64,000 nucleotides of DNA from Emticicia oligotrophica DSM 17448 (lineage in GTDB: Bacteria > Bacteroidota > Bacteroidia > Cytophagales > Spirosomataceae), in the NCBI RefSeq assembly GCF_000263195.1, contig NC_018748.1, positions 2,666,001-2,730,000 on the forward strand, written 5' to 3'. The notes under the pieces were generated by a model that saw nothing but the letters and a program-made list of their open reading frames with translations, was not told the origin of the DNA and did no database searches. This document shows positions 31,359 through 51,596 of this stretch, in pieces. Position 1 is the stretch's first letter. Every line of letters begins with the position of its first letter. The position numbers and the translations under genes are program-made.

Positions 31359-31395
31359 CGTCCGACAACGTACAAAGTATGTCCGAAAACGGACA
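31359..31395. promoter_or_regulatory. Paired dyad sites, probable activator binding sites (upstream copy)
   Basis: Site 2 (31380-31395) is the dyad TGTCCGAAAACGGACA. Site 1 (31359-31374) is CGTCC-N6-GTACA, a weaker version of the same dyad, with centres 21 bases apart (two helical turns). The centre of site 2 is 63 bases before the GG of a TTGGCAT box. An almost identical arrangement recurs before the fourth permease gene. I infer these are enhancer sites for the adjacent NtrC-family regulator. Confidence 0.65.
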
Positions 31396-31447
31396 GTTTA
31401 AAATAAATAATATTTTGTAAGTATCTGATAATGAATGCTTTGTGTTT

Positions 31448-31464
31448 TTGGCATAGCTTTGGAA
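31448..31464 (+). promoter_or_regulatory. Sigma-54-like promoter of the adaptor/ATPase/permease array
   Basis: TTGGCATAGCTTTGGAA has a near-perfect -24 half (TTGGCA) and a non-consensus -12 half (TTGGA where TTGCA is usual). GG sits at 31450-31451, so transcription would start near 31475. The second copy in this window has the same two halves and the same spacing, which supports it as a real element. Confidence 0.6.
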
Positions 31465-33728: not shown

Positions 33729-36158
33729 ATGTTATTTAATTATATAAAAATTGCATTTCGAAACCTCATTCGAAACAAAGTATATAGCTTCATCAATATT
33801 GTTGGTTTGGCTATGGGTATATCGGCATTTTTATTTATTCTAGAATACATTAGCCTTGAGAAAAGTGTGAATAAATTTCATGCGAACCTACCCAACATCT
33901 ATCGTTTGCTTAATCAGAATCCTCAGGGGGTAACTTGGGCCGATATGGAGCCGGGTTGGGCTCTGAAAGCAAAAGAGAGTTTTCCGGAGGTAAAAGATTT
34001 CTGCCGTTTTGAGCAAGGTGTAACCAAAGGAGTAGTAAAACGTGCCAATAGCAGAAGCGAACCATTTAGAGAAGCGGGTATTGGTTTTGCTGAAGGAAAT
34101 TTCTTTGAGTTCTTTAGTTTTCCTCTATTAGAAGGTAATGCGAAATCATTGGCGAAGCCCAATGTAGTTTTTATTTCTGAATCAAGTGCGAAGAAATATT
34201 TTGGAAAGGAAAACCCTATGGGGCAAATACTCATACTTGATAATCAGTTCGGTAACGCATCTTATACGGTTGAAGGTGTATTTGCTGATATGCTTGATAA
34301 CTCAGATATTCGATATGATATGGTGTTTTCGCTCGAAACACTTAAAAATCCAGCCAATCTGAAGGATAATAGTTGGGCGAGATTGGATAATTTAGATTCC
34401 CAGTACATTAGTACGTACTTTCTACTTAATGAGGGCGTAAATGTGAAAAATTTTGAGAAGAAACTCACAAATCTTCGCCAAAAATTAGGTAAAGAAAATG
34501 ATGGAGTGATTTTTAGATTACAAGCCTTAGCGAATATTCATTTAGGAGAATCTTTTTCCGATACCCTCCGAACAACAGGTAATATTAAATATGTGTATAT
34601 GTTAGGCGGAATTGCCTTTCTGATACTTATTATTGCTTGGTTTAATTACATCAATATTTCAACAGCTAATTCATTAAAACGTGCCAACGAGATTGGGGTA
34701 AGAAAAGTAATAGGGGCTAAACAGTCTGATTTACTCAAACAATTTTTGGCAGAATCATTACTTACAAACCTCTTAGGTTTTGGGGTATCGCTTTTATTGG
34801 TTATTATTCTACAGCCAGTATTTAATGATTTAATTGAAAAAAAGCTTTCATTTACGACTCTTCAATTTTCAAAAGATTGGATGATAGGTGTTGGACTATT
34901 GGCTTTGGGTTCAATTGGTTCGGGTGTACTAACTGCTTATTTTCTATCTTCGTTTAGCCCAGTAGAAACACTGAAAGGAAAATTTAATAAGTATTCGAAA
35001 GGGGTATTACTTCGTAAATCATTGGTTGTTTCACAGTTTGCAATTTCAATCATCTTGATTTTAGCAACTTGTATAATTTATCGACAACTGCAATTCATGC
35101 AGCAAAAAGATTTAGGTATGAATGTTAGTCAACTCTTGGTGATAAGAGGTGCAGAAGTTGGTAAAGATAGTACTTATAAAACTCGTAAAGACGCATTTAT
35201 TAATACTATTTCGCAGCAAAGCTATGTAAAAGATTATGCACTTTCGGGTAGCGTGCCGAGTAGTTGGTATAATTTCATGACTACTGGTCTTACTCAACCT
35301 AATTCGAAGCAAGGAGATGAACAAAAGACCTATGCTTTTGCAATTATCGGTGATAGATATTTACAAACCTATGGAATAAAATTAAAAGTGGGCAGAAATT
35401 TCACGCACGATGAATGTGATGTTGAATGGAATCAGAATAGTAAAGTGATGTTGAATGAAAGTGCAGTTGAGGCTTTAGGTTTCAAGACTCCAGAAGAGGC
35501 TATTCGAACAAAAATTCAATGGGATGAGCGTGTGCTTGAAGTAATAGGTGTAGTAAAAGATTATAATCACATGGGTGTTCAGCGAGCAATTGACCCAGTG
35601 ATATTCTATCCACAAAATAGTAGTTCATACTTTACGCTTAAGCTTTCTTCTAACGAAATTCAATCAAAAGTAGCAAGTTTAGAGAAAATCTATAAGACTT
35701 ATTTTGAGGGAAATCCGTACGAATACTTCTTTGTGGATGATAATTTTAATCGACAATACCTTTCTGAAGAGCAATATACTAAAATCTTTACAACTGCCTC
35801 GGTTTGGGCAATTATCATCGCTTGCTTAGGTCTTTTTGGCTTAGCCACTTTCACCGCTGAAAGCAGAACTAAAGAAATTGGCGTGCGAAAGGTTTTAGGG
35901 GCTTCGGTGGTGAGTATCATTACGCTTTTATCAAAAGATTTCCTTAAGTTGGTGTTTATTGCTATTGTGGTAGCCAGCCCTATAGCATACTATTTTATGA
36001 ATCAATGGCTGCAAGACTTTGCTTATAAGGCTGAAATCTCATGGTGGCTGTTTGCCATTGGAGGGGGCGTTGCCGTAATCATTGCTTTATTTACGGTGAG
36101 TTTTCAAGCCATTAAGGCCGCCCTGCTGAATCCTGTAAAATCACTCAAGACGGAATAA
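33729..36158 (+). CDS. FtsX/MacB-type ABC permease, array copy 1
   Basis: This 809-residue permease is built as two fused half-units, each a membrane helix, a periplasmic MacB-core domain and an FtsX three-helix domain. The first helix is at about 20-40. The EIGVRKV coupling motif is present in both halves (321-327 and 716-722), each after a helix pair like the one ending LLGLFGLATFT. It ends NPVKSLKTE, the tail shared by most copies. Fusion of two halves means one chain plus an ATPase dimer could form a complete MacB-like pump. It is the first of seven tandem paralogues, directly after the ATPase gene, and its start MLFNYIKIAFRN differs slightly from the MIRNY- start of most others. Substrate unknown. 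Confidence 0.93.
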   Translation: MLFNYIKIAFRNLIRNKVYSFINIVGLAMGISAFLFILEYISLEKSVNKFHANLPNIYRLLNQNPQGVTWADMEPGWALKAKESFPEVKDFCRFEQGVTKGVVKRANSRSEPFREAGIGFAEGNFFEFFSFPLLEGNAKSLAKPNVVFISESSAKKYFGKENPMGQILILDNQFGNASYTVEGVFADMLDNSDIRYDMVFSLETLKNPANLKDNSWARLDNLDSQYISTYFLLNEGVNVKNFEKKLTNLRQKLGKENDGVIFRLQALANIHLGESFSDTLRTTGNIKYVYMLGGIAFLILIIAWFNYINISTANSLKRANEIGVRKVIGAKQSDLLKQFLAESLLTNLLGFGVSLLLVIILQPVFNDLIEKKLSFTTLQFSKDWMIGVGLLALGSIGSGVLTAYFLSSFSPVETLKGKFNKYSKGVLLRKSLVVSQFAISIILILATCIIYRQLQFMQQKDLGMNVSQLLVIRGAEVGKDSTYKTRKDAFINTISQQSYVKDYALSGSVPSSWYNFMTTGLTQPNSKQGDEQKTYAFAIIGDRYLQTYGIKLKVGRNFTHDECDVEWNQNSKVMLNESAVEALGFKTPEEAIRTKIQWDERVLEVIGVVKDYNHMGVQRAIDPVIFYPQNSSSYFTLKLSSNEIQSKVASLEKIYKTYFEGNPYEYFFVDDNFNRQYLSEEQYTKIFTTASVWAIIIACLGLFGLATFTAESRTKEIGVRKVLGASVVSIITLLSKDFLKLVFIAIVVASPIAYYFMNQWLQDFAYKAEISWWLFAIGGGVAVIIALFTVSFQAIKAALLNPVKSLKTE

Positions 36159-36210: not shown

Positions 36211-38652
36211 ATGATACGCAATTACTTTAAAACAGCTTGGAGAAATCTCCTCAAAAATAAAACCTTTAGCTCTATTAATATTATTGGGTTGGCAGTGAGT
36301 ATGTCGGTATGTTTATTAATACTTTCAATCATTGCTGAGCAAAAGAGTTATGACCAATTCCATCAAAATAAAGACCGAATCTATCGTATTTTATCTACTA
36401 GAAAGAATAATAGTCAGATGAAGGATATGGCTTCATCGGCGTTACCGTTGGGTGAAGAATTACGCAAGAATTATACAGGGGTAGACGCATCGGCAAGCTT
36501 AGTAAGAAACATTGGAGGAGATATTTTTTATAATGATAAAATAGCTTCAGGTGGTGGATATTTTACAGATGGTAATTTATTTAAAATATTAGATTTTAAG
36601 CTGGCTGCTGGTGATGCTGCAACTGCTTTGGAAAATCCTCGCTCATTAGTCATTAGCGAAGAGCTTGCCTCCCAACTGTTTTATAATGAGAATCCGATTG
36701 GGAAAATCGTTAATTTCAAAAATACCGATTTGAGTCCAACAGGGATAGACAACGGAAACAGAGAAACAGAATATGGACTTTTTACGATTACAGGTGTTTT
36801 GAAACCCGTTGAAGGTAAAACACATCTTCCATTCAAAATATTGGCTTCACTTAGCACGCTTAATGCACTTGCTAAAGATTCGATAGTAAATTATAAGATG
36901 AATGACTGGGGTAATATTTGGTCAAATTATACCTATGTATTGATGCAAAAAGGGAAAAGTGAGGCCGATTTACAACAAATTTTAAATAAGGTATCCGATA
37001 AATATTTCCCAAAGGGCGAAACAAATCAATATGCGTTTAAGGCTCAATCTATTACCGAAATTACTCCAGGTAGTGCTATTGGAAATGAAACGCACATTTC
37101 AATACCCAAAATAGTCTTAGTGATTCTAGGCGTATTATGTTTAATAGTAATGTTATCGGCCTGTTTAAATTACACTAATCTTTCGGTGGCAAGGTCATTG
37201 ACTCGAGCTAAAGAGGTGGGGGTAAGAAAAGTTTCAGGGGCCACTCGTAATCAAATATTTGGACAGTTTATTGCTGAATCTGTATTAATATCATTGGTTT
37301 CATTGGTTTTTTCTATTGTTATTTTGTTTGTTCTTCAATCACTTTTCGCAAACTTGGTTGTTAACAAATACCTAAACATTACATTTTCTCAGAATATTTC
37401 TCTTTACTTAATATTTATTGCCTTTAGTATTTTAGTAGGTGTTGTAGCGGGTATTTTACCATCTATTTATATTTCGGCTTTCAACCCAATTCAGATTTTA
37501 AAAAACTTTAGTGGTGTAAAAATCTTCAAGCGTCTTACAATCCGTAAAGCCTTGCTAGTCGTACAATTTTCGGTTTCATTGATTTTTATTATTTCAACAA
37601 CATTAATCTACCTTCAAACAGACCGAATTTTCAATTTTGATTATGGTTTTAATAAAGAAAATGTAGTAAACGTAAATCTCTATAAACAAGAAAACTATAA
37701 GCGATTTGCCCAAGCTATTGCTACAAATAAAGATGTTGTATCTGTTTCGGCTTGTATGTTTTTGCCAGCTACTGGTATGCAAAATGGCACAATTATAAAG
37801 AAATCTGATAGTCCGAAAGATAGTTTACAAGTTAATTTTATTGATATAGATGCTAAGTGCGTAGATGTATGGGGATTGAAACTTGTGGCGGGTAAAAACC
37901 TACCTGAGATTCCAAGTACTAATGGCGAAAAATATACACTTATCAATGAGAAAATGGTGAGTAATTTTAAGTTAGGAACTCCTAAGCAGGCAATCGGCCA
38001 ACGTATTTTGGTAGATGGCAATAACTTAGAAATTGTGGGTGTTGTAAAAGACTTTCAGTACCTCGATGTTATGCGTGCTATCGAGCCTCTGATGCTCCGT
38101 AATCGTCAATCAGAATTTAATTTCGCAACTATCAGAATCAACGGAAATAACCAAACAGAAACGCTTAAATTCCTTGAAGCTACTTGGAAAAAGGTAAATC
38201 CAATGACAAGGTTTGAATATGAGTTTTTCGACCAAGAATTATTACTAATTCATACAATGTTTAGCAATATAGCCAATGTATTAGGTTTCATCGCATTCTT
38301 GGCTGTTTTCATTTCTTGCTTGGGTTTGCTTGGTATGGCCGCCTACACCGCCGAAACTCGTCGTAAAGAAATGGGCATCAGAAAAGTTTTAGGCTCAGGT
38401 GTGTTTCAGATAATTATGTTGTTATCAAAAAGCTATATGATTTTGCTTGGAGTTGCCGTGTTTATTGCTACCCCATTGGCTTATTTTATTAATACTTTAT
38501 GGCTTGATTTCTTTGTCTCAAGGGTTTCAATAAGTCCTGCCGTAATAGGCTTTAGTATATTTATTTTATTGCTGATAAGTATTTTAACGGTAATTTCTCA
38601 GTCTTGGCGAGCAGCTAGGGTAAACCCAGTAGAGTCATTGAAAACGGAATAA
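36211..38652 (+). CDS. FtsX/MacB-type ABC permease, array copy 2
   Basis: This 813-residue paralogue starts MIRNYFKTAWRNLLKNK and shows the YDQFHQNKDRIYRI block after the first helix. Coupling motifs are EVGVRKV at 335-341 and EMGIRKV at 720-726; the isoleucine-glycine pattern is kept, but the second has E-M in place of E-I. The tail is VNPVESLKTE. Two periplasmic core domains lie at about 45-285 and 470-680. It lies 52 bases after copy 1, with the worn palindrome between. Its second FtsX domain continues LLSKSYMILLGVAVF rather than the LLSKDFLKLV of copies 1 and 3, so it is one of the more divergent members. Confidence 0.93.
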   Translation: MIRNYFKTAWRNLLKNKTFSSINIIGLAVSMSVCLLILSIIAEQKSYDQFHQNKDRIYRILSTRKNNSQMKDMASSALPLGEELRKNYTGVDASASLVRNIGGDIFYNDKIASGGGYFTDGNLFKILDFKLAAGDAATALENPRSLVISEELASQLFYNENPIGKIVNFKNTDLSPTGIDNGNRETEYGLFTITGVLKPVEGKTHLPFKILASLSTLNALAKDSIVNYKMNDWGNIWSNYTYVLMQKGKSEADLQQILNKVSDKYFPKGETNQYAFKAQSITEITPGSAIGNETHISIPKIVLVILGVLCLIVMLSACLNYTNLSVARSLTRAKEVGVRKVSGATRNQIFGQFIAESVLISLVSLVFSIVILFVLQSLFANLVVNKYLNITFSQNISLYLIFIAFSILVGVVAGILPSIYISAFNPIQILKNFSGVKIFKRLTIRKALLVVQFSVSLIFIISTTLIYLQTDRIFNFDYGFNKENVVNVNLYKQENYKRFAQAIATNKDVVSVSACMFLPATGMQNGTIIKKSDSPKDSLQVNFIDIDAKCVDVWGLKLVAGKNLPEIPSTNGEKYTLINEKMVSNFKLGTPKQAIGQRILVDGNNLEIVGVVKDFQYLDVMRAIEPLMLRNRQSEFNFATIRINGNNQTETLKFLEATWKKVNPMTRFEYEFFDQELLLIHTMFSNIANVLGFIAFLAVFISCLGLLGMAAYTAETRRKEMGIRKVLGSGVFQIIMLLSKSYMILLGVAVFIATPLAYFINTLWLDFFVSRVSISPAVIGFSIFILLLISILTVISQSWRAARVNPVESLKTE

Positions 38653-38706: not shown

Positions 38707-41142
38707 ATGATACGCAATTATTTAAAAATCGCTTGGAGAAATATTTTGAAGAATAAGTTATATAGCTTTATCAATATTTTTGGTCTAGCTATTGGTCTTA
38801 CCTGTTTTTTGTTGATAACACTTTATGTTGTTGATGAACTTAGTTATGACCGTCAGTTTAAAGATGCAGAGCGAATTTATCGTATCAATTCTGATATTAA
38901 GTTTGGAGGAGCTGAGCAACGAATGGCAGTGAGTTCTGACCCATTTGGGGCAATACTAAAAAAAGATTATGCGGAGGTTGAGCAGTATGTTCGCCTTTAT
39001 GCCAATAATAGTCGTAGATTTATCAAAAAAGGTAATGAATTTTTGGTTGAAAATAATTGCTTGCACGCAGATTCTACACTTTTAGATGTTTTTCCTTTGA
39101 ATATCATAGAAGGTGATTCGAGAAGGATTTTGACTGAACCTAACACGCTTGTTATTAGTCAAACCGCTGCTAAAAAATATTTTGGAAATGCTTCAGCTTT
39201 GGGTAAAACATTGACAATAGGAATCAATAACCCTATTGAATATAAAATTACAGCGGTTTATGAAGATATGCCTTCTAATATCCATTTTCAGACTGATATG
39301 TTTTTCCCATTCAAGAATATCAATGATTATAAATTTGATAATTTCTTGAATCATAATTTTTATACTTATATAAAACTTCGAAAAGGAGTTGATTATAAGG
39401 AGTTTGAAAAGAAATTTGATGTAGTGATTGATAAGTATATTTTACCACAAGCAAAGGTGTTCATGGATATTAATAGCATGGAAGACTTCAAAAAAGGTGG
39501 TAATTATTTGAAATATTCACTTACGCCGCTGTTGGATATTCACTTAAAATCTGACCGAATTTACGAGCTAAGTCCCAACGGCGATATTCAATATGTGTAT
39601 ATTTTTTCAGTAGTAGCCTTGTTTTTATTACTGATTGCGTGTATAAACTTTATGAATTTAAGTACGGCTCGTTCGGCCAATCGTGCCAAAGAAGTAGGAA
39701 TTCGTAAGGTAATGGGTACCCAACGAAATAGTCTTATTATACAATTTATGTCAGAGTCTGTACTTACTAGCTATTTAGCTTTTATGATTGCTCTTACAAT
39801 TGCTATTTTGTTGATTCCCTACTTTAATGATATTGCAGGAAAACAATTTACTATTCAGTCGCTTTTTCAGGTACAATATCTACCGTTTTTAATTCTTTTA
39901 CCTATGGCTGTTGGAGTTTTGGCGGGCTATTATCCTTCGTTTTTCTTGTCATCTTTCCGTCCTATCGAGGTATTGAAAAGTAAACTTAATGCCAATTACC
40001 GTCGTTCAAACTTTCGAAATACTTTAGTTACATTTCAATTTGTCACCTCGTTGGTTTTGGTTATTTCAACCTTTATCATTTATCGTCAACTCAATTATAT
40101 TCAAAATAAAAACTTGGGTTTCTCGAAAGACCAAATTTTAGTGGTCACGGGCACTTCTTCCTTACGAGATAATAATCATGTATTTAAAGAAGAAGTAAAG
40201 AAAATGGCGGGTGTAAAAAATGCCACTTTTGCTGGTTTTTTACCAGTAGCTAACTCATCTAGAACCGATAATACTTTTTCTAAGGAAGCTCTATTTAATA
40301 CCCAAAATAGCTTCAATATGCAAGCATGGGAAATTGATGAAGATTATATTCCTACCCTTGACATGAAAGTTTTACAAGGAAGGAATTTTTCAAAAGTATT
40401 TAGCACAGATTCTTCGGCCGTTATCATCAACGAAAAGGCCGCAAAAATGATTGGATACGATAACCCAATCGGTAAAAAACTTTATATCAATAATGGTAAT
40501 ATTAATGATGTGAAGGCTTTGACAATTATTGGCGTAGTCAAGAATTTTCATTATGAGTCGATGCGAGAATCGGTTGGTCCGCTATGTTTTCGCTATGGAA
40601 AAAGTGCTTGGGTAACGGCCTTCAAAATTAACACTGATGAGCCACAAACCCTTGTGAAACAAATCGAAGCAAAATGGAAGACTTTCGCCCCCGAAATACC
40701 ATTTAATTATCACTTTATGAACGAATCATTTGATGAAATGTATCGAGCCGAACAAAGAATCGGTACTATCGCAATGGTTTTTTCTTTACTTACTGTCTTT
40801 ATAGCTTGTTTGGGTTTGTTTGGTTTAATTACTTACATTGCCGAACAGCGTACAAAAGAAATTGGTGTAAGAAAAGTACTCGGAGCAAGTGTTTGGAGTA
40901 TAGTTCAACTGCTATCGAAAGACTTTCTGAAATTGGTTTGTTTAGCCTTTTTAATAGCCTCTCCGCTGGCCTATTATGCTATGAATATTTGGTTGAAAAG
41001 CTTTGCTTTTAGAACAGAAATTTCGATTTGGATATTTTTAGGGGCAGGAGTCGTTACTATTTTAATTGCAATCTTTACTGTTAGCCTCCAATCAATGAAA
41101 GCGGCCTTGATGAATCCCATAAAATCATTGAAAAGTGAATAA
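38707..41142 (+). CDS. FtsX/MacB-type ABC permease, array copy 3
   Basis: This 811-residue paralogue starts MIRNYLKIAWRNILKNKLYSFINIFGLAIGLT. The YDRQFKDAERIYRIN block follows the first helix. Coupling motifs are EVGIRKV at 329-335 and EIGVRKV at 718-724. It ends MNPIKSLKSE. It follows copy 2 by 54 bases with no palindrome between. After its stop codon come the second set of paired TGTCC dyads and the internal sigma-54-like promoter, so it closes the first transcription unit in the model proposed here, although read-through into copy 4 is also possible. Confidence 0.93.
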   Translation: MIRNYLKIAWRNILKNKLYSFINIFGLAIGLTCFLLITLYVVDELSYDRQFKDAERIYRINSDIKFGGAEQRMAVSSDPFGAILKKDYAEVEQYVRLYANNSRRFIKKGNEFLVENNCLHADSTLLDVFPLNIIEGDSRRILTEPNTLVISQTAAKKYFGNASALGKTLTIGINNPIEYKITAVYEDMPSNIHFQTDMFFPFKNINDYKFDNFLNHNFYTYIKLRKGVDYKEFEKKFDVVIDKYILPQAKVFMDINSMEDFKKGGNYLKYSLTPLLDIHLKSDRIYELSPNGDIQYVYIFSVVALFLLLIACINFMNLSTARSANRAKEVGIRKVMGTQRNSLIIQFMSESVLTSYLAFMIALTIAILLIPYFNDIAGKQFTIQSLFQVQYLPFLILLPMAVGVLAGYYPSFFLSSFRPIEVLKSKLNANYRRSNFRNTLVTFQFVTSLVLVISTFIIYRQLNYIQNKNLGFSKDQILVVTGTSSLRDNNHVFKEEVKKMAGVKNATFAGFLPVANSSRTDNTFSKEALFNTQNSFNMQAWEIDEDYIPTLDMKVLQGRNFSKVFSTDSSAVIINEKAAKMIGYDNPIGKKLYINNGNINDVKALTIIGVVKNFHYESMRESVGPLCFRYGKSAWVTAFKINTDEPQTLVKQIEAKWKTFAPEIPFNYHFMNESFDEMYRAEQRIGTIAMVFSLLTVFIACLGLFGLITYIAEQRTKEIGVRKVLGASVWSIVQLLSKDFLKLVCLAFLIASPLAYYAMNIWLKSFAFRTEISIWIFLGAGVVTILIAIFTVSLQSMKAALMNPIKSLKSE

Positions 41143-41151
41143 GGACGTGCA

Positions 41152-41187
41152 TGTCCAAAGACGTACAATAGTGTCCATTTTCGGACA
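41152..41187. promoter_or_regulatory. Paired dyad sites, probable activator binding sites (internal copy)
   Basis: Site 1 (41152-41167) is TGTCC-N6-GTACA. Site 2 (41172-41187) is TGTCCATTTTCGGACA, whose reverse complement differs from the upstream site 2 by one base. Centres are 20 bases apart. The site 2 centre is 63 bases before the GG of a TTGGCAT box, exactly as in the upstream copy. The stem ATAGTGTCC / GGACACTAT followed by T-rich sequence could also act as a terminator for copy 3. Confidence 0.65.
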
Positions 41188-41239
41188 CTATTATATTTTA
41201 TTTTCTTTATAAATTACTGATAGTAAGTGTTTTGAAAAT

Positions 41240-41256
41240 TTGGCATGTAGTTGGAT
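41240..41256 (+). promoter_or_regulatory. Internal sigma-54-like promoter before permease copy 4
   Basis: TTGGCATGTAGTTGGAT has the same TTGGCAT and TTGGA halves with the same seven-base gap as the upstream promoter. Expected start of transcription is near 41267, 16 bases before the ATG at 41283. Confidence 0.6.
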
Positions 41257-41282
41257 TGAATAAAATAAATTATGAAAAAGCT

Positions 41283-43715
41283 ATGTTAAAAAACTACTTC
41301 AAAGTTGCAGTTCGAAACCTACTCAAAAACAAAGCATTGTTTGGTATCAATGTTTTGGGTCTAGCAATTGGTTTAGCTACATTCCTAACAATAAGTCTTT
41401 TTGTGTTAGATGAGTGGAGCTATGATACATTCAATTCCGAGAATATTGCTAGGATTGTTTTGCAAGCCAAAATGGGTGAAGAAAAAATCAATGAAGCAGC
41501 TGTTATGGCTCCTGTAGCAGCTACGCTCAAACAGGCTATTCCTGAAATAAAAGAAACCACTCGAATTCATAAAATTACTGATGCAGCTAAAGTGAAATTA
41601 GCTCAAAAAACTATTCGAAACGGGAAATTATTTTTTGCTGATGAAACATTTTTTGATGTTTTCTCCATAAAAATGATTCAAGGTAATCCTAAAACTGCCT
41701 TGAAAGAACCTTATTCGATTGTACTGACACAAGAGCAAGCCAAGCTTTATTTTGGCGATACAGACCCCCTGAATAAAACAATTACTATCGAGGGTATTGG
41801 CATTTATGGACTCAATGGTTTTAATAATTTTTCTGGGCAATATACGGTAAGTGGCATTATTGAAAAAATTCCAGCAAATGCACATTTTCATTTTGATTTA
41901 CTTGGTTCGATGGCTACGAATTCGGCAGCTAATTCGCCTAGTTGGCTTGCAGGTCAATATTATACTTATTTGAGCCTAAAAGGAAATAGTGATTTGAAGC
42001 AAATCGAAAGCAAAATCAAATCAGTGACAGACAAATATTTTAGTGCTGACCTCAAGGCACAAATGGGTATGAATTTAAGTGAATTTGAAGCAAAAGGTAA
42101 TAAAGTAAATTTGGTCTTACAACCCATTAAGGATATCCATCTTTACTCTAATCTTAGCGGAGAATTTGAAGCAGGAGGTAGTTATAAAACTGTACTTATA
42201 TTCAGTACTGTTGCTCTCTTTATGCTTTTAATTGCTTGCATTAATTTCATAAATCTAAGTACTGCTTCGGCTTCAAAACGCCTCAAGGAAATTGGTATGC
42301 GTAAAGTACTGGGTTCAGCCCAACAACAATTAATCATACAGTTTTTAGTTGAGTCGTTTTTAGCTACTTTTTTTGCACTTCTACTCGGACTCGGAATTTT
42401 CTATTTCACACTTCCTTTATTTAATCAGTTAAGTGGAAAAGCATTTTATATATGGCAATTATTATCGTTGCAAAATCTTGCTTTATTGGTGGGTCTTGTC
42501 TTTGCTATAAGCTTATTGGCTGGTGGATATCCAGCATTCTTTATGTCTTCGTTTAATCCTTTAGGGGCTTTAAAAAGTCGATTTACATCAGGTAGAAGCA
42601 AAGGGGTTAGAAGTACTTTGGTAGTTTTTCAGTTTGGCATTTCAGCCATTCTAATTATTGGGACAATCGTAGTGAACCAGCAAATGGATTATATCCAGAA
42701 AAAAGACATTGGTTATGACCGTAATTCACTTATTGTTATACGTGATGCAGGTTTTTTAGGAAATAAGCTTAGTGTTTTTAGAGACGAACTAAAAAAAGAC
42801 CCACGAGTAAAGAATATTACCACATCGGCATATGTACCTGCGGGTCCGACCGATGATAATATGAATTCATTTTTAAAATCAGATGACCCTACACAACACA
42901 TTCGTATGAGAATTTATAGTGTAGATGAGGCTTATGTGCCCACTTTGGGAATGAAAATCAATTTTGGACGAAATCTTTCTGATGCGTTAGACCAAAAATC
43001 AAATAATGTTTTAATCAACGAAACGGCAATAAAGGCTCTGGGATTACCTAAAAATCCAGTAGGTGAAATAATCAAATTAGATGATAACTCTACCAAAACA
43101 GTCATAGGTGTTGTCAAAGATTTTCATGCACGCTCTTTGCGTGAGCCAATCGAGCCACTTATCATGCAATATGGGCCATATTATGGTCTAATTTTAAAAG
43201 CCGAAAACAAAGATATGGCTAGCTTATTGGCTAAAATGGAAAGTATTTGGAAGAGTTTTGGTACGGGCGAAACCTTTAGATATGCTTTTTTAGATGAACT
43301 ATACAATGAAACTTATCTGAAAGAAGCCAATATGTTAATTATTCTGCGGGCTTTTGCAATTCTTACCATTTTTATTGCGTGTTTAGGTTTGTTCGGGCTA
43401 ATTACCTACACTACTCAACAGCGTACAAAAGAAATTGGGATTCGTAAAACATTAGGAGCCACAGTTCTACAAATTGTGATTTTATTAGCCAAAGATTTTA
43501 TAAAGTTAGTAGGTTTCTCATTGTTGATAGCTTTTCCGTTGGGCTATTATTTAATGAATAATTGGCTACAAGATTTTGAATATAGGGTTGGAATTAGTAC
43601 TTGGGTTTTTGTACTATCAGGACTGATGACCTTAGCAATAGCTTTTTTAACAATTGCCTTTCGAAGTATAGAGGCGGCGTTGATGAATCCTGTAAAATCA
43701 TTGAAAACAGAATAA
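41283..43715 (+). CDS. FtsX/MacB-type ABC permease, array copy 4
   Basis: This 810-residue paralogue has its start placed at 41283 (MLKNYFKVAVRNLLKNK). This aligns with the MIRNY- starts of the other copies and lies just downstream of the internal promoter. An in-frame ATG at 41232 would add 17 residues but lies upstream of the promoter box. Coupling motifs are EIGMRKV at 336-342 and EIGIRKT at 717-723; the threonine in the second is unique in the array. It ends MNPVKSLKTE. It is the first gene of the proposed second unit. Confidence 0.93.
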   Translation: MLKNYFKVAVRNLLKNKALFGINVLGLAIGLATFLTISLFVLDEWSYDTFNSENIARIVLQAKMGEEKINEAAVMAPVAATLKQAIPEIKETTRIHKITDAAKVKLAQKTIRNGKLFFADETFFDVFSIKMIQGNPKTALKEPYSIVLTQEQAKLYFGDTDPLNKTITIEGIGIYGLNGFNNFSGQYTVSGIIEKIPANAHFHFDLLGSMATNSAANSPSWLAGQYYTYLSLKGNSDLKQIESKIKSVTDKYFSADLKAQMGMNLSEFEAKGNKVNLVLQPIKDIHLYSNLSGEFEAGGSYKTVLIFSTVALFMLLIACINFINLSTASASKRLKEIGMRKVLGSAQQQLIIQFLVESFLATFFALLLGLGIFYFTLPLFNQLSGKAFYIWQLLSLQNLALLVGLVFAISLLAGGYPAFFMSSFNPLGALKSRFTSGRSKGVRSTLVVFQFGISAILIIGTIVVNQQMDYIQKKDIGYDRNSLIVIRDAGFLGNKLSVFRDELKKDPRVKNITTSAYVPAGPTDDNMNSFLKSDDPTQHIRMRIYSVDEAYVPTLGMKINFGRNLSDALDQKSNNVLINETAIKALGLPKNPVGEIIKLDDNSTKTVIGVVKDFHARSLREPIEPLIMQYGPYYGLILKAENKDMASLLAKMESIWKSFGTGETFRYAFLDELYNETYLKEANMLIILRAFAILTIFIACLGLFGLITYTTQQRTKEIGIRKTLGATVLQIVILLAKDFIKLVGFSLLIAFPLGYYLMNNWLQDFEYRVGISTWVFVLSGLMTLAIAFLTIAFRSIEAALMNPVKSLKTE

Positions 43716-43721
43716 ATCCAC

Positions 43722-43749
43722 GTAGAGACAAAGCATGCCTTGTCTCTAC
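43722..43749. repeat. GTAGAGAC...GTCTCTAC palindrome between permease copies 4 and 5
   Basis: A 28-base dyad with outer arms GTAGAGACAA / TTGTCTCTAC and centre GCATGC, one mismatch pair inside. It belongs to the same family as 36165-36190 and 46162-46189. Confidence 0.75.
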
Positions 43750-43774: not shown

Positions 43775-46156
43775 ATGATACGCAATTACTTTAAAATCGC
43801 TTGGAGAAACATTATCAACAACAAACTCTATTCTGTCATTAATATTTTGGGACTGAGTTTGGGTTTGACTGTTTGTTTACTTATCACCTTATTTGTGAAA
43901 GATGAACTTAGTTACGATCAATTTCAAAGTAAAAAACACAGCATTTATCGCTTAGTTTCTGATGAAATAAGTCCGAGTGGAGAAGTCCATAAAATAGGCA
44001 TTTCGGGAATGGTACAGGGGGCAACTTTTAAACGACAAGTTCCGGAATTAGAAGAAATGGTAAGAATTGTAGGGGATAGATTTAATATTCGCCATAACAA
44101 CGAAATCTTTATTCAAGAGGTTACGAAAGTAGATAGTAGTTTCTTCAAAATTTTTGATGCTGAATTTGTGGAAGGGTCTCCTTACAGAGCCCTATCTGAC
44201 CCACAATCGGTTGTTATATCGGAAGAAGTAGCCGAACGTTTTTTTGGGAAAAACAAGGCTTTAGGAAAGCCGCTTTCTATCTTTTACGATAATGAATTTC
44301 AGAATTTTACCGTTTCGGGTGTTACAAAAAAATCACCGATTAATTCAAGTATTCAGATAAACTTATTATTGCCATTGCATCATGATAAAGTACAAGATGA
44401 CCAATGGATTAACTTTTATATGAATACATTTTTCACGGTAAAAGAAGGAGCTAATCCCGCTATAATTGAGCAAAAATTTGCTAAAATCTATGCTGCGGAG
44501 GCTAAAGAACAAATAGCTCAGGCCTTGAAAGATTGGGGTTATAAAGGCAAATTAGTCTGGAAATTACAGCCATTTCTTGAAATGCACCTAAGTAAAGATT
44601 ATCAAGCTCAAAATGGAATTAAAGAGTCTGGAAATAAGCTTTTTTCTTATTTTTTAACTGGTATTGCGGCGTTTATTCTAATAATTGCTTGTATAAACTT
44701 TGTGAATATTGCTATTTCTCGTTCGATGAAACGTGCCAAAGAAATTGGTGTTAGGAAAGTAATGGGCAGCGAACGCAAGCAACTAATTATACAATTTTTA
44801 TCCGAGTCGGCACTTTTGAGTTTAATAGCTTTTATTGTAGCTATTTGCATTTCTGTTTTGGCATTGCCAACTTTTAATCAACTTTCCGATAAAACACTTT
44901 CATTTAGCTATTTATTAGACACTAAGTTGGTGCTACTTTATCTAGCTATCTTTATTCTAACTGCTTTTTTATCTGGTTTTTATCCTGCCTTGGTTTTATC
45001 GGGTTTTCAGCCAGTAGAAACACTTTATGGGCGATTTAGATTTGGAGGTAAAAATTTGCTACAAAAATCGCTCACGGTTTTGCAATTTGGTTTAGCTACT
45101 TTCTTTATTCTACTCACGATAGTGCAGTTTAAGCAAGTAGATTTATTCATGAACCAGAGTTTGGGTTATGATGATTCGAATATTATGATTGTGAATGCTG
45201 GAAACGTTGAACGTTCGAAAGCCAACGTTTTTATCAGTGAATTAGAGAAATACCCAACGATTCAGCAAGTGGCTCCACGTCAGCAAGGTTTTTGGTTTAC
45301 GCTATCTACCGTTAATGGTGATAAACAGCTCAACCATGATTTAGAAGTAGTTGATAATAGATACATTGAGTTACTTGGATTAAAAGTGTTACAAGGACGT
45401 AATTTTTCGCCATCTTTTCCAAGTGATACTGCTACTGCGGTATTAGTCAATGAAGCGTTTGTCAAGGAAGCTAATTGGAAAAATCCAATCGGTCAGACGA
45501 TTGCTTTCCATAATAAAGATAAATACCAAGTTATAGGAGTTATTAAAGATTATCATTATAGTTCATTATACGAAAAGGTACGTCCACAACTTTTCATTGC
45601 CGACCCTAAGCATGGAGGTTACGGTGCTTTCTATATTCGAATAACTGGACAGAATATCTCGCAAACAATTGCTTATGTAAGAGAAAAATTCAAGAGTTCG
45701 ATGCCAACAAAACCATTTGAGTATGAATTTTTACATGAAACCAATGCAAAGAACTACACGAAGGAAATAAAAATGAAGCAAATAATTGGCTGGGCTGCAT
45801 GGCTAACAATTTTTATTTCTTGTATCGGACTTTTCGGTCTTTCTTCTTTAGCTACTGAAAAGCGTTTCAAAGAAATTGGTGTACGAAAAGTTCTTGGAGC
45901 AAGTACTAATAGTATCGTAAGAATTTTGTCGATTGATTTTCTAAAACTCATTCTTATTGCTTATTTGATAGCTGCACCAGCTGCCTACTATGCGGCAGAA
46001 CAATTGCTACAAAGTTATCCATATCGCATTCAACAAGGGGCTGACATGTTTTTACTAACCATTATAGGATTATTGATGGTTGGTTTACTTACGGTAAGTT
46101 ATCAGGCAATGAAAGCTGCCATGATGAACCCAGTAAAATCATTAAAAACAGAATAA
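43775..46156 (+). CDS. FtsX/MacB-type ABC permease, array copy 5
   Basis: This 793-residue paralogue starts MIRNYFKIAWRNIINNKLYSVINILGLSLGLT. The YDQFQSKKHSIYRLV block follows. Coupling motifs are EIGVRKV at 323-329 and EIGVRKV at 700-706. It ends MNPVKSLKTE. The first periplasmic domain is shorter than in copies 2-4, which accounts for most of the length difference. DNA around its start (AAAATTATGATACGCAATTAC) is nearly identical to that of copies 2 and 6, showing recent duplication or conversion of the gene edges. Confidence 0.93.
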   Translation: MIRNYFKIAWRNIINNKLYSVINILGLSLGLTVCLLITLFVKDELSYDQFQSKKHSIYRLVSDEISPSGEVHKIGISGMVQGATFKRQVPELEEMVRIVGDRFNIRHNNEIFIQEVTKVDSSFFKIFDAEFVEGSPYRALSDPQSVVISEEVAERFFGKNKALGKPLSIFYDNEFQNFTVSGVTKKSPINSSIQINLLLPLHHDKVQDDQWINFYMNTFFTVKEGANPAIIEQKFAKIYAAEAKEQIAQALKDWGYKGKLVWKLQPFLEMHLSKDYQAQNGIKESGNKLFSYFLTGIAAFILIIACINFVNIAISRSMKRAKEIGVRKVMGSERKQLIIQFLSESALLSLIAFIVAICISVLALPTFNQLSDKTLSFSYLLDTKLVLLYLAIFILTAFLSGFYPALVLSGFQPVETLYGRFRFGGKNLLQKSLTVLQFGLATFFILLTIVQFKQVDLFMNQSLGYDDSNIMIVNAGNVERSKANVFISELEKYPTIQQVAPRQQGFWFTLSTVNGDKQLNHDLEVVDNRYIELLGLKVLQGRNFSPSFPSDTATAVLVNEAFVKEANWKNPIGQTIAFHNKDKYQVIGVIKDYHYSSLYEKVRPQLFIADPKHGGYGAFYIRITGQNISQTIAYVREKFKSSMPTKPFEYEFLHETNAKNYTKEIKMKQIIGWAAWLTIFISCIGLFGLSSLATEKRFKEIGVRKVLGASTNSIVRILSIDFLKLILIAYLIAAPAAYYAAEQLLQSYPYRIQQGADMFLLTIIGLLMVGLLTVSYQAMKAAMMNPVKSLKTE

Positions 46157-46205: not shown

Positions 46206-48632
46206 ATGATACGCAATTACCTAAAAATCGCTGTTAGAAATTTGTTGAAAAACAAATCTTACGCACTTATCAATATCGTAGGTTTATCGGTAGCTTTTGG
46301 AGCTGCCATTTTGTTATTTCTTACCGCTCATTTCGAATTTTCTTTCGATAATTTCCACACTAATAAAGAGCGTATTTATAAAGTTTTTTATAAGCTAAAC
46401 TTGGCAGAAAAACAACAAATGGGTACTTCTGTTCCTGCACCACTGCGTGGGGCATTAGCTTCTGAGTTTAAGTCAGAAATCAAATACCTAACACGCATTA
46501 TGGATAGTGGCGTGCAGATAGTTCAAGGCGAAAAAACAATTGATAATGACCTAAATTATGTTGATGCCGACTTCTTGAAAATGTTTTCGTTTAAAATGCT
46601 AAAAGGCGACCCAAATACGGCTTTAAACGATTTACGTAGCATTGTAATTAATGAATCAACATCCAAGAAATTATTTGGCGATTCGGAGCCATTAGGCCAA
46701 ACACTTAAGCTGAATTTTGGTGAAAAAATGGAGGCTTTTATTGTAAGTGGAGTAATTGCCGATGCCCCCGAAAATTCAAGTGTTGAAAGTGAAATGATGC
46801 TTAGGTTTGAAAATAATCCGTCCTACCATGATTTGAAAGATGGATGGAATAACCAAAATCACCAACTCTATGTACAACTAGCGGATAATATTACACACGA
46901 TAACTTTGAAAAAAGACTTAAACCTTTCACTCGTAAATATTATAAAACCTCGATTGAGCAAATTCTGAAAGAAGGAGGAAAACCCGATGAACGAGGCGAA
47001 GTTTTTAGTATAAGACTTATGCCTTTATTAGAAGAGCATTTTATAAAAAACTTGGGCGGAATACAGGTTTTAGATAAAACCTACCCATATATGTTGTTGA
47101 TTATTAGTGTATTGGTAGTTTTGGTAGCTTGTATCAATTTTATTAATTTATCAATTGCTCGTTCGCTCGAACGTGCCAAAGAAGTAGGCATGCGAAAAGC
47201 TTTAGGGGCGGTAAAAAATCAGATTCTAGCTCAGTTTTGGGGTGAGGCTTTTATTTTATGTATCATTGGTTTTACGATAGGAGGGGTATTGGCCGTAACT
47301 CTGATGCCAAGCTATAATTCTATTTTTCAGAGTTTTATTTCTTTTAAAAGTCTGCTTAACCCTTGGGTAGCGGTTTTATTGTTGGCGAGTTTCCTAATTG
47401 TTACACTCGTTGCTGGAGGTTACCCAGCATTAATTGTTACAAAATTCAACATTATTGAAGTTTTAAAAGGAAAAGTAAAGGTGAGTACACGCTCAGGTGG
47501 ACTAAGAAATACTCTAATTATTGTCCAATTTAGTATTGCTACCTTGCTTATTAGCAGCACTTTGATTGTTTGGAAACAAATTGATTATTTAAGAAATAAA
47601 CCTTTAGGTTTTGATGAAAGTCAAGTAATTAGTATTCCCGTTGGACATGAAGTTCAAGGTACAAAAATGCTTGAATTTATGAGAAATAAGCTGGCCAATT
47701 ATCCACAAATTCAGAGTATTACTGCCGCCGATATTAATATTGGCAGAGGAAAAGATAATTCGATGTCGCACTCGGGTTATGGGTTTGAAATGGAAGGAAA
47801 AACTTATCATACCAATGGACTAAACGTTGATTATGATTACATCAAAACACTTGGGCTAAGCCTCACGAATGGACGTGATTTTTCAAGAGAATTTCAATCT
47901 GATAAATCAAGAAGTATTGTTGTAAATGAGTCTATGGTGAAACAGTTAGGCTTCAAGAATCCAATCGGGAAAAATATCCCAATTGGTGATAGTTTAGGCC
48001 GAACTATTGTGGGCGTGGTGAAAGATTATCATTTCGAATCACTAAAAAATAAAATCGAATCTATGACCTTCTTCCTGCAAGGCGATTTTGGCTATAGTTA
48101 TATTTTTGTCAAATTAGCTCCGCAGGCATCGCCCAAAGAAACAATGGATTTATTAGCAAAAGCCTACAAAGAAATCGCTCCTAAATCGGTATTTCAAGCT
48201 TCGTTTTTAGATGAAAACACTAACAATCTTTATAGAAAAGAGGAGCGTTTTTCTCAAATTATTATGAGTGCTGCAGCCTTAGCTATTTTATTATCTTGTA
48301 TGGGTTTATTTGCCATTGCTTTAATGATGATTGCCCAACGTACCAAAGAGATTGGTATTCGAAAAGTATTAGGAGCGAGTATCCCAAGTTTAGTGCTTTT
48401 ACTTTCTAAAGATTTCTTGGTTTTGGTTTCAATTGCTATAATGATAGCCTCTCCAATTGCTTATTATCTCATGGAAAAATGGCTAACAGATTTTGTCTAT
48501 CGCATTAATATTGGCTGGAATGTATTTTTAATGGCAGGTCTAACTGCTGTCGTAATTGCCTTATTGACAGTTAGTTATCAGGCAGTAAAAGCGGCTTTGA
48601 TGAATCCTGTAAATAGTTTGCAAAATGAATAG
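46206..48632 (+). CDS. FtsX/MacB-type ABC permease, array copy 6
   Basis: This 808-residue paralogue starts MIRNYLKIAVRNLLKNKSYALINIVGLSVAFGAA. The FDNFHTNKERIYKVF block follows the first helix. Coupling motifs are EVGMRKA at 326-332 (alanine at the last place) and EIGIRKV at 715-721. The tail reads MNPVNSLQNE, unlike the NPVKSLKTE of the other copies. Its last eight bases (ATGAATAG) contain the start codon of the methyltransferase gene, so the altered tail probably arose when the two genes became overlapped. Confidence 0.93.
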   Translation: MIRNYLKIAVRNLLKNKSYALINIVGLSVAFGAAILLFLTAHFEFSFDNFHTNKERIYKVFYKLNLAEKQQMGTSVPAPLRGALASEFKSEIKYLTRIMDSGVQIVQGEKTIDNDLNYVDADFLKMFSFKMLKGDPNTALNDLRSIVINESTSKKLFGDSEPLGQTLKLNFGEKMEAFIVSGVIADAPENSSVESEMMLRFENNPSYHDLKDGWNNQNHQLYVQLADNITHDNFEKRLKPFTRKYYKTSIEQILKEGGKPDERGEVFSIRLMPLLEEHFIKNLGGIQVLDKTYPYMLLIISVLVVLVACINFINLSIARSLERAKEVGMRKALGAVKNQILAQFWGEAFILCIIGFTIGGVLAVTLMPSYNSIFQSFISFKSLLNPWVAVLLLASFLIVTLVAGGYPALIVTKFNIIEVLKGKVKVSTRSGGLRNTLIIVQFSIATLLISSTLIVWKQIDYLRNKPLGFDESQVISIPVGHEVQGTKMLEFMRNKLANYPQIQSITAADINIGRGKDNSMSHSGYGFEMEGKTYHTNGLNVDYDYIKTLGLSLTNGRDFSREFQSDKSRSIVVNESMVKQLGFKNPIGKNIPIGDSLGRTIVGVVKDYHFESLKNKIESMTFFLQGDFGYSYIFVKLAPQASPKETMDLLAKAYKEIAPKSVFQASFLDENTNNLYRKEERFSQIIMSAAALAILLSCMGLFAIALMMIAQRTKEIGIRKVLGASIPSLVLLLSKDFLVLVSIAIMIASPIAYYLMEKWLTDFVYRINIGWNVFLMAGLTAVVIALLTVSYQAVKAALMNPVNSLQNE

Positions 48633-49215
48633 AGAATCATATAATAAAATTGCCGAAATATGGGCTGAGCATAGGCATAGTTCATTTGTGAGCCAGATTA
48701 TTGTAGATTTTGCAGAAAAGTTAAGTCTGAATGCTAAAGTATTAGATATAGGATGTGGAACTGGTATGCCTGTGGCAGGTTATTTAGCTTCAAAAGGCTT
48801 GCTTGTAACTGGTATTGATTTCGCCGAAAAAATGATAGAAATAGCTCAAAGTCAACAGATTCCCCAAACTCAATTTCTTGTTTCTGATTTTTTCGACTTC
48901 GAAACCAAGGAAACATTTGATGGTATTTTAGCTTGGGATTCGTTCTTCCATTTTCCAAAAGAAAAGCAAGCAATGATTTACCCTAAAGTGGCTCGATTAC
49001 TCAATTCTGGCGGATATTTACTTTTTACCCACGGTGATGATGATGGCGAGCATACAAATCCAATGATGGGCGAGGAGTTTTATTACAGTGCTATTTTGAA
49101 AGAAGATATTATACAATTACTTGAGGCTAATGGATGCGAAGTTATTGATATGATAAAAGATTACCGAGAAAAAGACACACATCGAGGTTTGGTAGTTTTA
49201 GCACAGAAGAAATAA
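48625..49215 (+). CDS. Class I SAM-dependent methyltransferase inside the permease array
   Basis: This 196-residue methyltransferase has motif I VLDIGCGTGMP at 39-49, an acidic residue at the end of strand 2 (VTGIDFAEKMIEIA), then FLVSDFFDF and FDGILAWDSFFHFPKEKQ (motifs II and III). It is complete and short, like ubiquinone/biotin-type small-molecule methyltransferases, with no membrane segment. It overlaps the sixth permease gene by eight bases and is followed 14 bases later by the seventh, so it is embedded in the operon and translationally coupled. It could modify the exported molecule or be a passenger. The target cannot be named from sequence. Confidence 0.9.
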   Translation: MNRESYNKIAEIWAEHRHSSFVSQIIVDFAEKLSLNAKVLDIGCGTGMPVAGYLASKGLLVTGIDFAEKMIEIAQSQQIPQTQFLVSDFFDFETKETFDGILAWDSFFHFPKEKQAMIYPKVARLLNSGGYLLFTHGDDDGEHTNPMMGEEFYYSAILKEDIIQLLEANGCEVIDMIKDYREKDTHRGLVVLAQKK

Positions 49216-49229
49216 ACTTAAATTAAACG

Positions 49230-51596
49230 ATGATTCGTAATTACTTAAAAGTAGCGATTAGAAACCTTTGGAAAAATAAGCTTTTCTCCTTTATCAATAT
49301 TATGGGGTTAGGTTTAGCCATTCCATTTGCTTTGATGGCATTAATGCAGCTTCAAGGAGCATTTGAATTTGATAATTTTCATCCTAATTCTGAGCGAATT
49401 TATAGAATTATTACCGATGAAAAAAATCAAGAAAATGGCACGCAACACTATGCTTCTTCTCCATATTTATTAGCCGATAATCTTCGAAACAATTATGCTT
49501 CAGTTGAGAAAGCCACGAAAGTTGTTCGTGAATTTGGCTGGGAGCTAAATAATCAATTAAAAAATATTCGGGTAAACACGATTTATATTGAGCCTTCTTT
49601 CTTTGATATTTTTGGATTTAGGCTAGCCAAAGGTTCAATACCAATGGAGCCTAATAGTTTGATTTTAAGTCATGAAACGGCTGTCAAGTTTTTTAATGAT
49701 AGTAATCCAATTGGGCAGTTTCTCTCGCATCCAACCTATGGAAGTTTTAAAATCACAGGTGTTTTGAAACCTTTCAAAAGAGGTACACAATTTCGGAGTG
49801 ATGTGATGGTTTCGATGGCTACTTATGAGAAACTTAATGCCGAGCAGTTAAAGCCAACTTCATGGGAAAGATTAGAAACACACACTTTTGTGCGACTTTC
49901 TCCCAATGCCTCAACTCAAGCTTTAGATGTAGCTTTGAATGAGATTGCTAAGAAAACCAATACTTTAATTAGTAAGGCCCAAAAGAGCAATACTTTTCGT
50001 AAACAAAAGTTAGTGGATATCTCGCCAAGTACAGAAAAACTCCGTAATAATCCTTATGTAGAAGATATGCAGGATATTTATTTCAACTTTACTATTCCAC
50101 TCATGATTTTATTATTGGCTGGGTTTAATTATACAAATCTGACTTTAGCGAGGTCATTGAGCCGCTCGAAAGAGGTAGGAGTAAGAAAAGTAATGGGAGC
50201 ATTCAGAAGCCAATTAATCACACAATTTATCGCCGAGGCTATCGTGATTGCTTTTTTATCACTTTTTGTTGGTGTTATCATTTTACAAATTATAAAATCA
50301 TCTATACACGTCAATTGGGTAACTTGGGAAGTAGAAAACCAGACTAAGATTTGGGTACTTTTCATTGTATTTGCTTTATTTTTAGGAATTTTAGCAGGTA
50401 GCTTACCTGCTTGGATTTTATCGAGTTTTCAGCCTGTAAAAGTTCTTAAAGGGAATGTTTTACCCGCTAGTTTCGGAAAAATAGGTTTTCGAAAGGTATT
50501 GGTTGTCATTCAGTTTGTGGCTTCGCTGGGGTTCATTTTTCAAATTGGGCATCTTTATAATCAGTTTGAATATATGGCAACAGAAAATGAGAATTTTAAT
50601 CGGAAAGGAATTTTTAACATTTCTCTTACCGCTCATAATTATGCTTTATTAGCGAATGAAGTAGCAACAAATAAGGATGTAGAAAAAATAGGATTTGTGT
50701 CGGTACCTTTTGGTGGAATCTCGACCGAATATGCAATCAAAGCAAAAGATAAAAGTGAAAATATCGCTTCATATTATTATGCCGCCGATGCCAATTTTAT
50801 TGAAAATATGGGTTTAAATATTCTGGCGGGTACAAATCTACCCAAAACAGAATCAGATACAGCAACCAACTTTGTATTGCTCAATGAACAAGCACTTAAA
50901 CGCCTACATTTAGGTACTCCACAAGAAGCCATCGGAAAAGCTATTTATCTTAATAATTCATCCAATGCTTCGCAAATAGTGGGTATAGTGAAAGACTTTT
51001 GTCATTTTAATTATCAATTTGAAAAGCAGCCAGTGGTATTTCAATATAATCCTGCTCAGTTTCATGTAATGGTTGTTAAAACTAATATTAATACATCCAA
51101 AACTGACTTTTTGTCTGATATTCAGCGTATCTGGAAGAAACAAAATCCATATCAACAATTAAGTTACTCATGGTTTGAGCAAGAACTTTACGAACGTTAT
51201 TATCCAGCCGAAGATATGAAAATGATGGGTATGGCAGCACTCGTAATCATCGTCATTGCGGTTATGGGTTTGTTGGGTATGGTGAATTACAGTACAGAGA
51301 AACGTACTAAAGAAATCGGAATTAGAAAAGTAATGGGGGCATCGGTTGGAGAAATTGTGCGAATACTTTCTTGGAGTTTCATGAAACTCCTTATTTGGGC
51401 TGGAATCATAGCTATTCCGATTGGTTTTGCTGAAAGCTTGGTTTTAGACAATTTATTTACCTTTTATGCTGGACTCAATATTGGTTTAATGACTATCTTT
51501 TTTATCTGTATTTTCTGTATTGCGGGCAGTACGATTGCATATTACGCTATCCGAACAGCGAATCTAAATCCAGTGAAAACTTTGAGGACGGAATAA
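49230..51596 (+). CDS. FtsX/MacB-type ABC permease, array copy 7
   Basis: This 788-residue paralogue is the shortest and most divergent. It starts MIRNYLKVAIRNLWKNKLFSFINIMGLGLAIPFALMALMQL, with FDNFHPNSERIYRI after the first helix. Coupling motifs are EVGVRKV at 315-321 and EIGIRKV at 695-701. The second FtsX domain continues ILSWSFMKLLIWAGIIAIPIGFAESLVLDNL in place of the LLSKDFLKL... pattern. It ends LNPVKTLRTE. It is the last gene of the array; a strong terminator follows 25 bases after the stop codon. Confidence 0.93.
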   Translation: MIRNYLKVAIRNLWKNKLFSFINIMGLGLAIPFALMALMQLQGAFEFDNFHPNSERIYRIITDEKNQENGTQHYASSPYLLADNLRNNYASVEKATKVVREFGWELNNQLKNIRVNTIYIEPSFFDIFGFRLAKGSIPMEPNSLILSHETAVKFFNDSNPIGQFLSHPTYGSFKITGVLKPFKRGTQFRSDVMVSMATYEKLNAEQLKPTSWERLETHTFVRLSPNASTQALDVALNEIAKKTNTLISKAQKSNTFRKQKLVDISPSTEKLRNNPYVEDMQDIYFNFTIPLMILLLAGFNYTNLTLARSLSRSKEVGVRKVMGAFRSQLITQFIAEAIVIAFLSLFVGVIILQIIKSSIHVNWVTWEVENQTKIWVLFIVFALFLGILAGSLPAWILSSFQPVKVLKGNVLPASFGKIGFRKVLVVIQFVASLGFIFQIGHLYNQFEYMATENENFNRKGIFNISLTAHNYALLANEVATNKDVEKIGFVSVPFGGISTEYAIKAKDKSENIASYYYAADANFIENMGLNILAGTNLPKTESDTATNFVLLNEQALKRLHLGTPQEAIGKAIYLNNSSNASQIVGIVKDFCHFNYQFEKQPVVFQYNPAQFHVMVVKTNINTSKTDFLSDIQRIWKKQNPYQQLSYSWFEQELYERYYPAEDMKMMGMAALVIIVIAVMGLLGMVNYSTEKRTKEIGIRKVMGASVGEIVRILSWSFMKLLIWAGIIAIPIGFAESLVLDNLFTFYAGLNIGLMTIFFICIFCIAGSTIAYYAIRTANLNPVKTLRTE

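Follow-up and report, generated by a model that had tools for sequence, protein, structure and literature searches.

The window analysed here is a stretch of 64,000 nucleotides from Emticicia oligotrophica DSM 17448 (contig NC_018748.1, positions 2,666,001 to 2,730,000 of the forward strand). It harbors an array of seven permease genes together with genes for a periplasmic adaptor, an ABC ATPase and a methyltransferase, and two predicted sigma54 promoters, named P1 and P2. The features, in window coordinates, are the following:

29703..31049, minus strand: NtrC-type sigma54 activator, divergent to P1 (Pfam Response_reg, Sigma54_activat, HTH_8)
31359..31374, plus strand: putative P1 distal (weaker) enhancer dyad CGTCCGACAACGTACA, by direct reading
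31380..31395, plus strand: putative P1 proximal enhancer dyad TGTCCGAAAACGGACA
31418..31430, plus strand: P1 IHF-like box (reverse complement of WATCARNNNNTTR), by direct reading and class enrichment
31449..31463, plus strand: predicted P1 sigma54 -24/-12 element TGGCATAGCTTTGGA, predicted start ~31475
31589..32836, plus strand: periplasmic adaptor (HlyD/RND type), by family profile matches
32945..33622, plus strand: ABC ATPase of the unit, by family profile matches
33729..36158, plus strand: permease copy 1 (MacB_PCD and FtsX, two stretches each)
36211..38652, plus strand: permease copy 2
38707..41142, plus strand: permease copy 3, last gene of the predicted first unit
41152..41167, plus strand: putative P2 distal (weaker) enhancer dyad TGTCCAAAGACGTACA, preceding the main dyad by 20 bp
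41167..41192, plus strand: extended dyad forming a 10-bp stem with a T-rich tail, predicted intrinsic terminator of the first unit
41172..41187, plus strand: putative P2 proximal enhancer dyad TGTCCATTTTCGGACA (TGTCC-N6-GGACA)
41210..41222, plus strand: P2 IHF-like box (reverse complement of WATCARNNNNTTR), by direct reading and class enrichment
41241..41255, plus strand: predicted P2 sigma54 -24/-12 element TGGCATGTAGTTGGA, predicted start ~41267, by direct reading and class profile
41283..43715, plus strand: permease copy 4, first gene of the predicted second unit
43775..46156, plus strand: permease copy 5
46206..48632, plus strand: permease copy 6
48625..49215, plus strand: methyltransferase, its start overlapping the end of copy 6
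49230..51596, plus strand: permease copy 7

The permeases possessed MacB_PCD and FtsX domains above cut-off, with a weak sequence match to the solved MacB structure. At the edges of the locus, the gene at 29359 may be ArsC, and 51781-53082 matched the DUF937 and OmpA domain profiles. Copy 3 ended at 41142 and was followed by copy 4 after 140 nt, the largest gap within the permease array, compared with 49-59 nt between the other directly adjoining permeases that had nothing between them. Palindromes of the form GTAGAGAC-N12-GTCTCTAC were also observed at the copy 4/copy 5 junction (43722-43749) and the copy 5/copy 6 junction (46162-46189); with 24 copies in the genome and none in the reversed control, they represent a dispersed repeat outside the promoter system.

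All seven permeases began with M(I/L)(R/K/F)NY, and copy 4 read from 41283 began with MLKNYFK, while the 17 additional residues obtained by reading from 41232 were encoded by the promoter sequence itself. These observations fit a start of copy 4 at 41283, as in a preliminary description of this DNA; the in-frame ATG mentioned there at 41232 turned out to be a TTG codon. A mini-ORF ATGAAAAAGCTATGTTAA (MKKLC, 41272-41289) has a stop that overlaps the ATG of copy 4, and translational coupling is possible.

Within the copy 3/copy 4 gap, the TGGCA -24 element at 41241 and the -12 G at canonical spacing placed the predicted start near 41267 by position counting, in agreement with the 5' end proposed in the preliminary description. 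The -24 GG and -12 G of TGGCATGTAGTTGGA, at fixed spacing, are those of a sigma54-type promoter. P2 was missed by a sigma70-type promoter scan of the region, which gave 45 promoter-like matches, fewer than in shuffled sequences (mean = 60.4). A reading of the -12 element as TTG one base early was dropped in view of the fixed spacing of the class profile. P1, the adaptor promoter, was located in the interval separating the adaptor gene from the divergently oriented regulator gene, and had the same layout as P2, with a dyad, a tandem weak dyad and 69 nt from dyad to TGGCA. In the whole 5.22-Mb genome, the dyad alone occurred 3 times against ~1.9 expected, and its count alone was rejected as evidence as it was not rare. 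When TGGCA was required at 45-75 nt from the dyad, 3 sites were found against ~0.07 expected, with none in the reversed control. These three composite sites were P1, P2 and one at a distant operon with genes for an ABC ATPase and a TolC-type channel. The layout of P1, the 69-bp spacing and the genomic rarity of the composite site bear out, at the sequence level, the promoter previously suggested between copies 3 and 4.

The composite pattern was found in 28 of 30 relatives' genomes (162 matches, against 13 in the reversed control), these genomes having been reached through 30 of 80 named loci and some sites being counted at more than one gap length. Across 161 loci, 210 oriented dyad contexts were collected, 63 of which had TGGCA at 67-72 nt, the distance being 69 nt at 25 sites, 70 nt at 25, 71 nt at seven and 68 nt at six. 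Additional spacing peaks at 80-83 and 90-92 nt followed at intervals of about one helix turn, consistent with helical phasing and tandem dyads. With only the dyad and TGGCA required and nothing imposed at -12, the profile of the 63 sites recovered the canonical -12 G in 87% and a T two positions ahead of it in 92%, then mostly A or G. A box matching the reverse complement of the IHF consensus WATCARNNNNTTR was present in 29 of the 63 spacers and lay, in every case, 31 or 32 nt ahead of TGGCA (mean = 0.45 and maximum = 3 in 200 shuffles).

Six Emticicia relatives were compared at the locus, and the regulator, enhancer, adaptor and ATPase were kept in all six. The number and order of permeases varied among them, and with the order differing, no orthologous junction was assigned to P2. 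Further enhancer-bearing permease units lay downstream in five of the six relatives, and none was seen downstream in G002. Among the Larkinella sites listed (L171, L177, L182, L186, L190 and others), many preceded a gene of ~112 aa and not a permease.

The regulator (29703-31049) possessed the receiver, AAA+ and Fis HTH domains of the NtrC family, and its nearest named relatives, 80-91% identical, were found in Emticicia. GAFTGA is the sigma54-contact motif. The regulator carried GAFTDA instead, as did most of its relatives (GAFTDA or GSFTDA), while the four other strong activator-domain matches in the genome had GAFTGA or GSFTGA (three) and GAFTSA (the fourth). Among 150 family genomes, composite sites occurred in 93 of the 116 with a close relative of the regulator and in 5 of the 34 without (Fisher p = 4e-12, the relatives being non-independent samples). 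Within the genus Emticicia, sites were present in 8/8 genomes with the regulator and 0/3 without; regulator, kinase and sites occurred together in 8 of the 11 genomes, and all were missing from the same other three. The kinase, so called from its sequence, adjoined the regulator at loci L024 and L028. None was found beside the regulator in the window, and a relative of the kinase, 63% identical, was encoded at an unlinked position of the same genome (C5:1995337). At L098, a 649-aa ORF beside the regulator was rejected as a kinase, its sequence suggesting a secreted enzyme. Two strong matches to the RpoN DNA-binding domain indicated that the genome encodes sigma54. The two genes lie at C5:2226918 and C5:966848, and the domain match of the second was ~500 bp from a sigma54-activator domain match. 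The co-occurrence of regulator and sites suggests that the regulator may bind the dyads and is probably the activator of both P1 and P2.

Downstream of the third composite site (C5:1646370, L102:6371) were genes encoding a DUF5916 protein, a second ABC ATPase, which shared 52% identity with the first, and an outer-membrane efflux protein. In G002, a site was followed by DUF5916 and ATPase genes, the start of the same order, and among the sites listed, those of G001, G003, G004, G005 and G037 preceded a DUF5916 or second-ATPase gene. The efflux-channel family had 42 matches in the genome, as a rule two per protein, so that the channel of the third operon is one of many. Joint activation may therefore cover the adaptor, the first ATPase and the permeases as well as the second ATPase and the channel. 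The preliminary description had the second unit, devoid of adaptor and ATPase, rely on the motor proteins of the first. The second unit was confirmed to lack these genes and could plausibly depend on the ATPase of the first, but the genome also encodes another ATPase marked by the same motif.

At P2, the dyad was flanked by AATAG/CTATT, giving a stem of 10 pairs (41167-41192; -14.0 kcal/mol; 0 of 200 shuffles as stable), compared with -8.2 for the P1 dyad. Four of the 10 pairs were G-C, the stem being A+T-rich outside its core, and the T-rich tail began with A. For comparison, 165 non-redundant dyads (226 before removal of near-identical sites) were grouped by flanking genes, promoter not required, the set being limited to exact, intergenic dyads no more than 700 nt from a gene. 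Arms extended by at least 4 bp were found at 7 of 10 permease-to-permease sites, a count that includes the P2 of the window (6 of 9 without it), compared with none of 24 adaptor promoters. They also occurred at 3/32 sites behind other co-directional genes, 0/24 adaptor promoters read towards the regulator and 3/75 other divergent sites (7/10 against 3/99: Fisher 4e-7). Sets C and D of this sort (D being the other divergent sites) can hold both strands of one site, and L222, counted on both strands, supplied two of the three extended other-divergent sites, while the third (L098) came from a likely spurious ORF. The dyads at L103:13573 and L222:871 had extended arms without a co-directional gene directly upstream, and may be relics of an internal junction. 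When a promoter was required (98 sites, from 127 before removal of near-identical ones), the extension was found at 10/41 co-directional and 1/57 divergent sites (p = 0.0006). Hairpins had a median energy of -13.3 at internal sites, compared with -7.9 at adaptor promoters, and the 10 nt after the hairpin held 6.8 and 3.2 T, respectively.

The six outer pairs of the arms covaried across the 10 internal sites (0.481, shuffled mean = 0.252; 0 of 500 shuffles as high), with 75% of outer-pair cells paired. At adaptor promoters, where 22 of the 24 sites were aligned, 36% were paired and covariation was absent (0.136, shuffled mean = 0.177; 418 of 500 as high). The arm sequences varied between Emticicia, Runella and Dyadobacter, yet still paired. 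In G048, G094, G106 and G116, genomes of the same family, a hairpin with a T run lay instead between the enhancer and the -24 element. Among 146 non-redundant modules with looser promoters (192 before removal of near-identical ones), terminator-like hairpins were found at 15 of 30 sites behind a permease (nine in the dyad, six in the spacer), 10/36 behind other co-directional genes, 0/22 adaptor promoters and 9/58 other divergent sites (15/30 against 9/80: p = 4e-5), the scan missing some spacer hairpins plain by eye (L261). The site sets of the dyad sort, the promoter-required sort and the hairpin count overlap and include the P2 of the window. The proposal that the stem at 41167-41192 would also end the first transcript gains support from the arm extension and covariation across relatives, which together suggest that the array is probably composed of several separately ended units switched on together.

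The best explanation for the interval 41143-41283 is that it separates two co-activated transcription units as a compact punctuation module. The NtrC-type activator (29703-31049), once phosphorylated, would bind the tandem TGTCC-N6-GGACA sites and, with the DNA bent over the IHF-like box, open the sigma54 RNA polymerase waiting at TGGCA-N8-G, so that copies 4-7 and the methyltransferase would be transcribed from near 41267. The same activator would also drive P1, with the adaptor, the ATPase and copies 1-3, and the distant operon (DUF5916, ATPase, TolC-type channel), so that the parts of a three-part exporter would all increase in concert. Once transcribed, the enhancer dyad, lengthened by its outer arms and followed by the T-rich tail, would end the transcript from P1 fully or partly. 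The common motif and its spacing, the co-occurrence of motif and regulator and the longer arms at internal junctions are seen by comparison, whereas binding, phosphorylation, initiation, termination and the role in export are steps that we infer. For the module as a whole, that is, a sigma54 promoter with an activator enhancer doubling as terminator between co-activated units, we estimate a probability of about 0.78. The division of the array into two separately expressed units, as first described, is supported by sequence as regards the split; as the stem core is a putative enhancer site common to P1 and P2, joint activation is expected in place of independent switching.

Several observations weigh against this explanation. 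The regulator carries GAFTDA and not the sigma54-contact motif, 3 of the 10 internal junctions have no arm extension, and half of the post-permease sites (15/30) have no terminator-like hairpin at the threshold used while 9/58 other divergent sites have one. An intrinsic terminator has a G+C-rich stem ahead of a T run, and here the stem is A+T-rich around its core and its tail opens with A. The relatives are also non-independent samples.

Some of these points would also suit P2 as a sigma54 promoter whose dyad is an activator site alone, the longer stem being due to chance or to a tighter DNA palindrome, with transcripts from P1 continuing into copy 4. The core dyad and spacing are the same as at P1, some internal sites have no arm extension, and just 4 of the 10 stem pairs are G-C. 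We regard this as unlikely, as the extension is concentrated at internal junctions (7/10, against 0/24 adaptor promoters), the arm sequences change and yet pair, a T-rich tail is present, and a stronger DNA palindrome should help at P1 too. The converse, in which the stem serves to end transcription from P1 and the promoter match is fortuitous, would agree with the good hairpin and its T-rich tail, and would leave copies 4-7 in need of read-through or another promoter. It appears highly improbable, since P1 has the same core dyad and spacing where a terminator is not needed, and the composite site is both rare in the genome (3 found, 0.07 expected) and recurrent in relatives (28/30 genomes).

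The module could also be a relic of fusion, with copies 4-7 once a separate unit whose promoter was inherited and whose present use may be minor. G001 has a unit of p6, methyltransferase and p7 that carries its own enhancer and is preceded by unrelated genes; in G003 and G006, other module-bearing units are found at a distance of tens of kb. Conservation of the dyad, box and -24/-12 element argues for current use, however, and the arm extension suits internal junctions; as the full account of P2, fusion is possible but doubtful, while it is compatible with the punctuation module as its history. Extending the punctuation module to this Bacteroidota group, in which internal junctions would have co-opted the activator's palindromic enhancer to form the core of an intrinsic terminator and other genera would place the terminator inside the enhancer-promoter spacer, has somewhat better than even odds of being correct.

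If this is true, one element of 26 to 46 bp would stop the upstream unit as RNA and start the downstream unit as DNA, a modular punctuation letting permease arrays grow, move and stay co-activated. Large permease arrays of Bacteroidota would follow a readable expression rule, in which a single activator serves several insulated units and the adaptor, ATPase and channel are provided in trans. The DNA motif is concrete enough for finding the whole regulon, and P2 would offer a testable case in which one palindrome serves as an enhancer at the DNA level and as a terminator at the RNA level.

In the available portions of a 2025 study (PMC12316311), predicted sigma54 enrichment was described at COG0577 FtsX-like permease genes in Bacteroidia and other classes, a link called previously unrecognized. 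Permease class, phylum and sigma factor are the same as in the array described here, which means that, as far as those portions go, control of such permeases by sigma54 is already in print. They name no dyad or enhancer motif, activator, internal promoter or terminator for COG0577 genes; putative elements of these kinds are proposed here. No report of such arrays with an enhancer that also serves as terminator was found in the literature covered, most subscription journals lying outside coverage. P1 and P2 resemble known sigma54/NtrC-family promoters in their predicted -24/-12 elements, upstream tandem dyads at helical phase, intervening IHF-like box and NtrC-type response regulator, and differ from them in the GAFTDA found in place of GAFTGA and in the location of the enhancer inside a terminator-like hairpin at internal junctions.

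Regarding the exporter itself, the permeases are similar to ADOP duplicated permeases (TIGR03434) in length (~800 aa) and in their two MacB_PCD/FtsX halves, but several copies here share one adaptor and one ATPase, and copies 1 and 4 scored 260 bits for a cut-off of 622. Scores against the darobactin exporter models (NF038007, NF038008, NF038010) were also below cut-off for the ATPase (280/375 bits), copy 4 (152/700) and the adaptor (211/450). Compared with DarBCD and MacAB-TolC, the array differs in having many permeases for each ATPase, in keeping the two as separate proteins and in a channel encoded ~1 Mb away. Below these curated cut-offs, the permeases, adaptor and ATPase resemble those of ADOP and the darobactin exporter, and as in DarBCD and MacAB-TolC, an adaptor, a LolD/MacB-type ATPase, MacB-like permeases and a TolC-type channel are found, here under the same motif.
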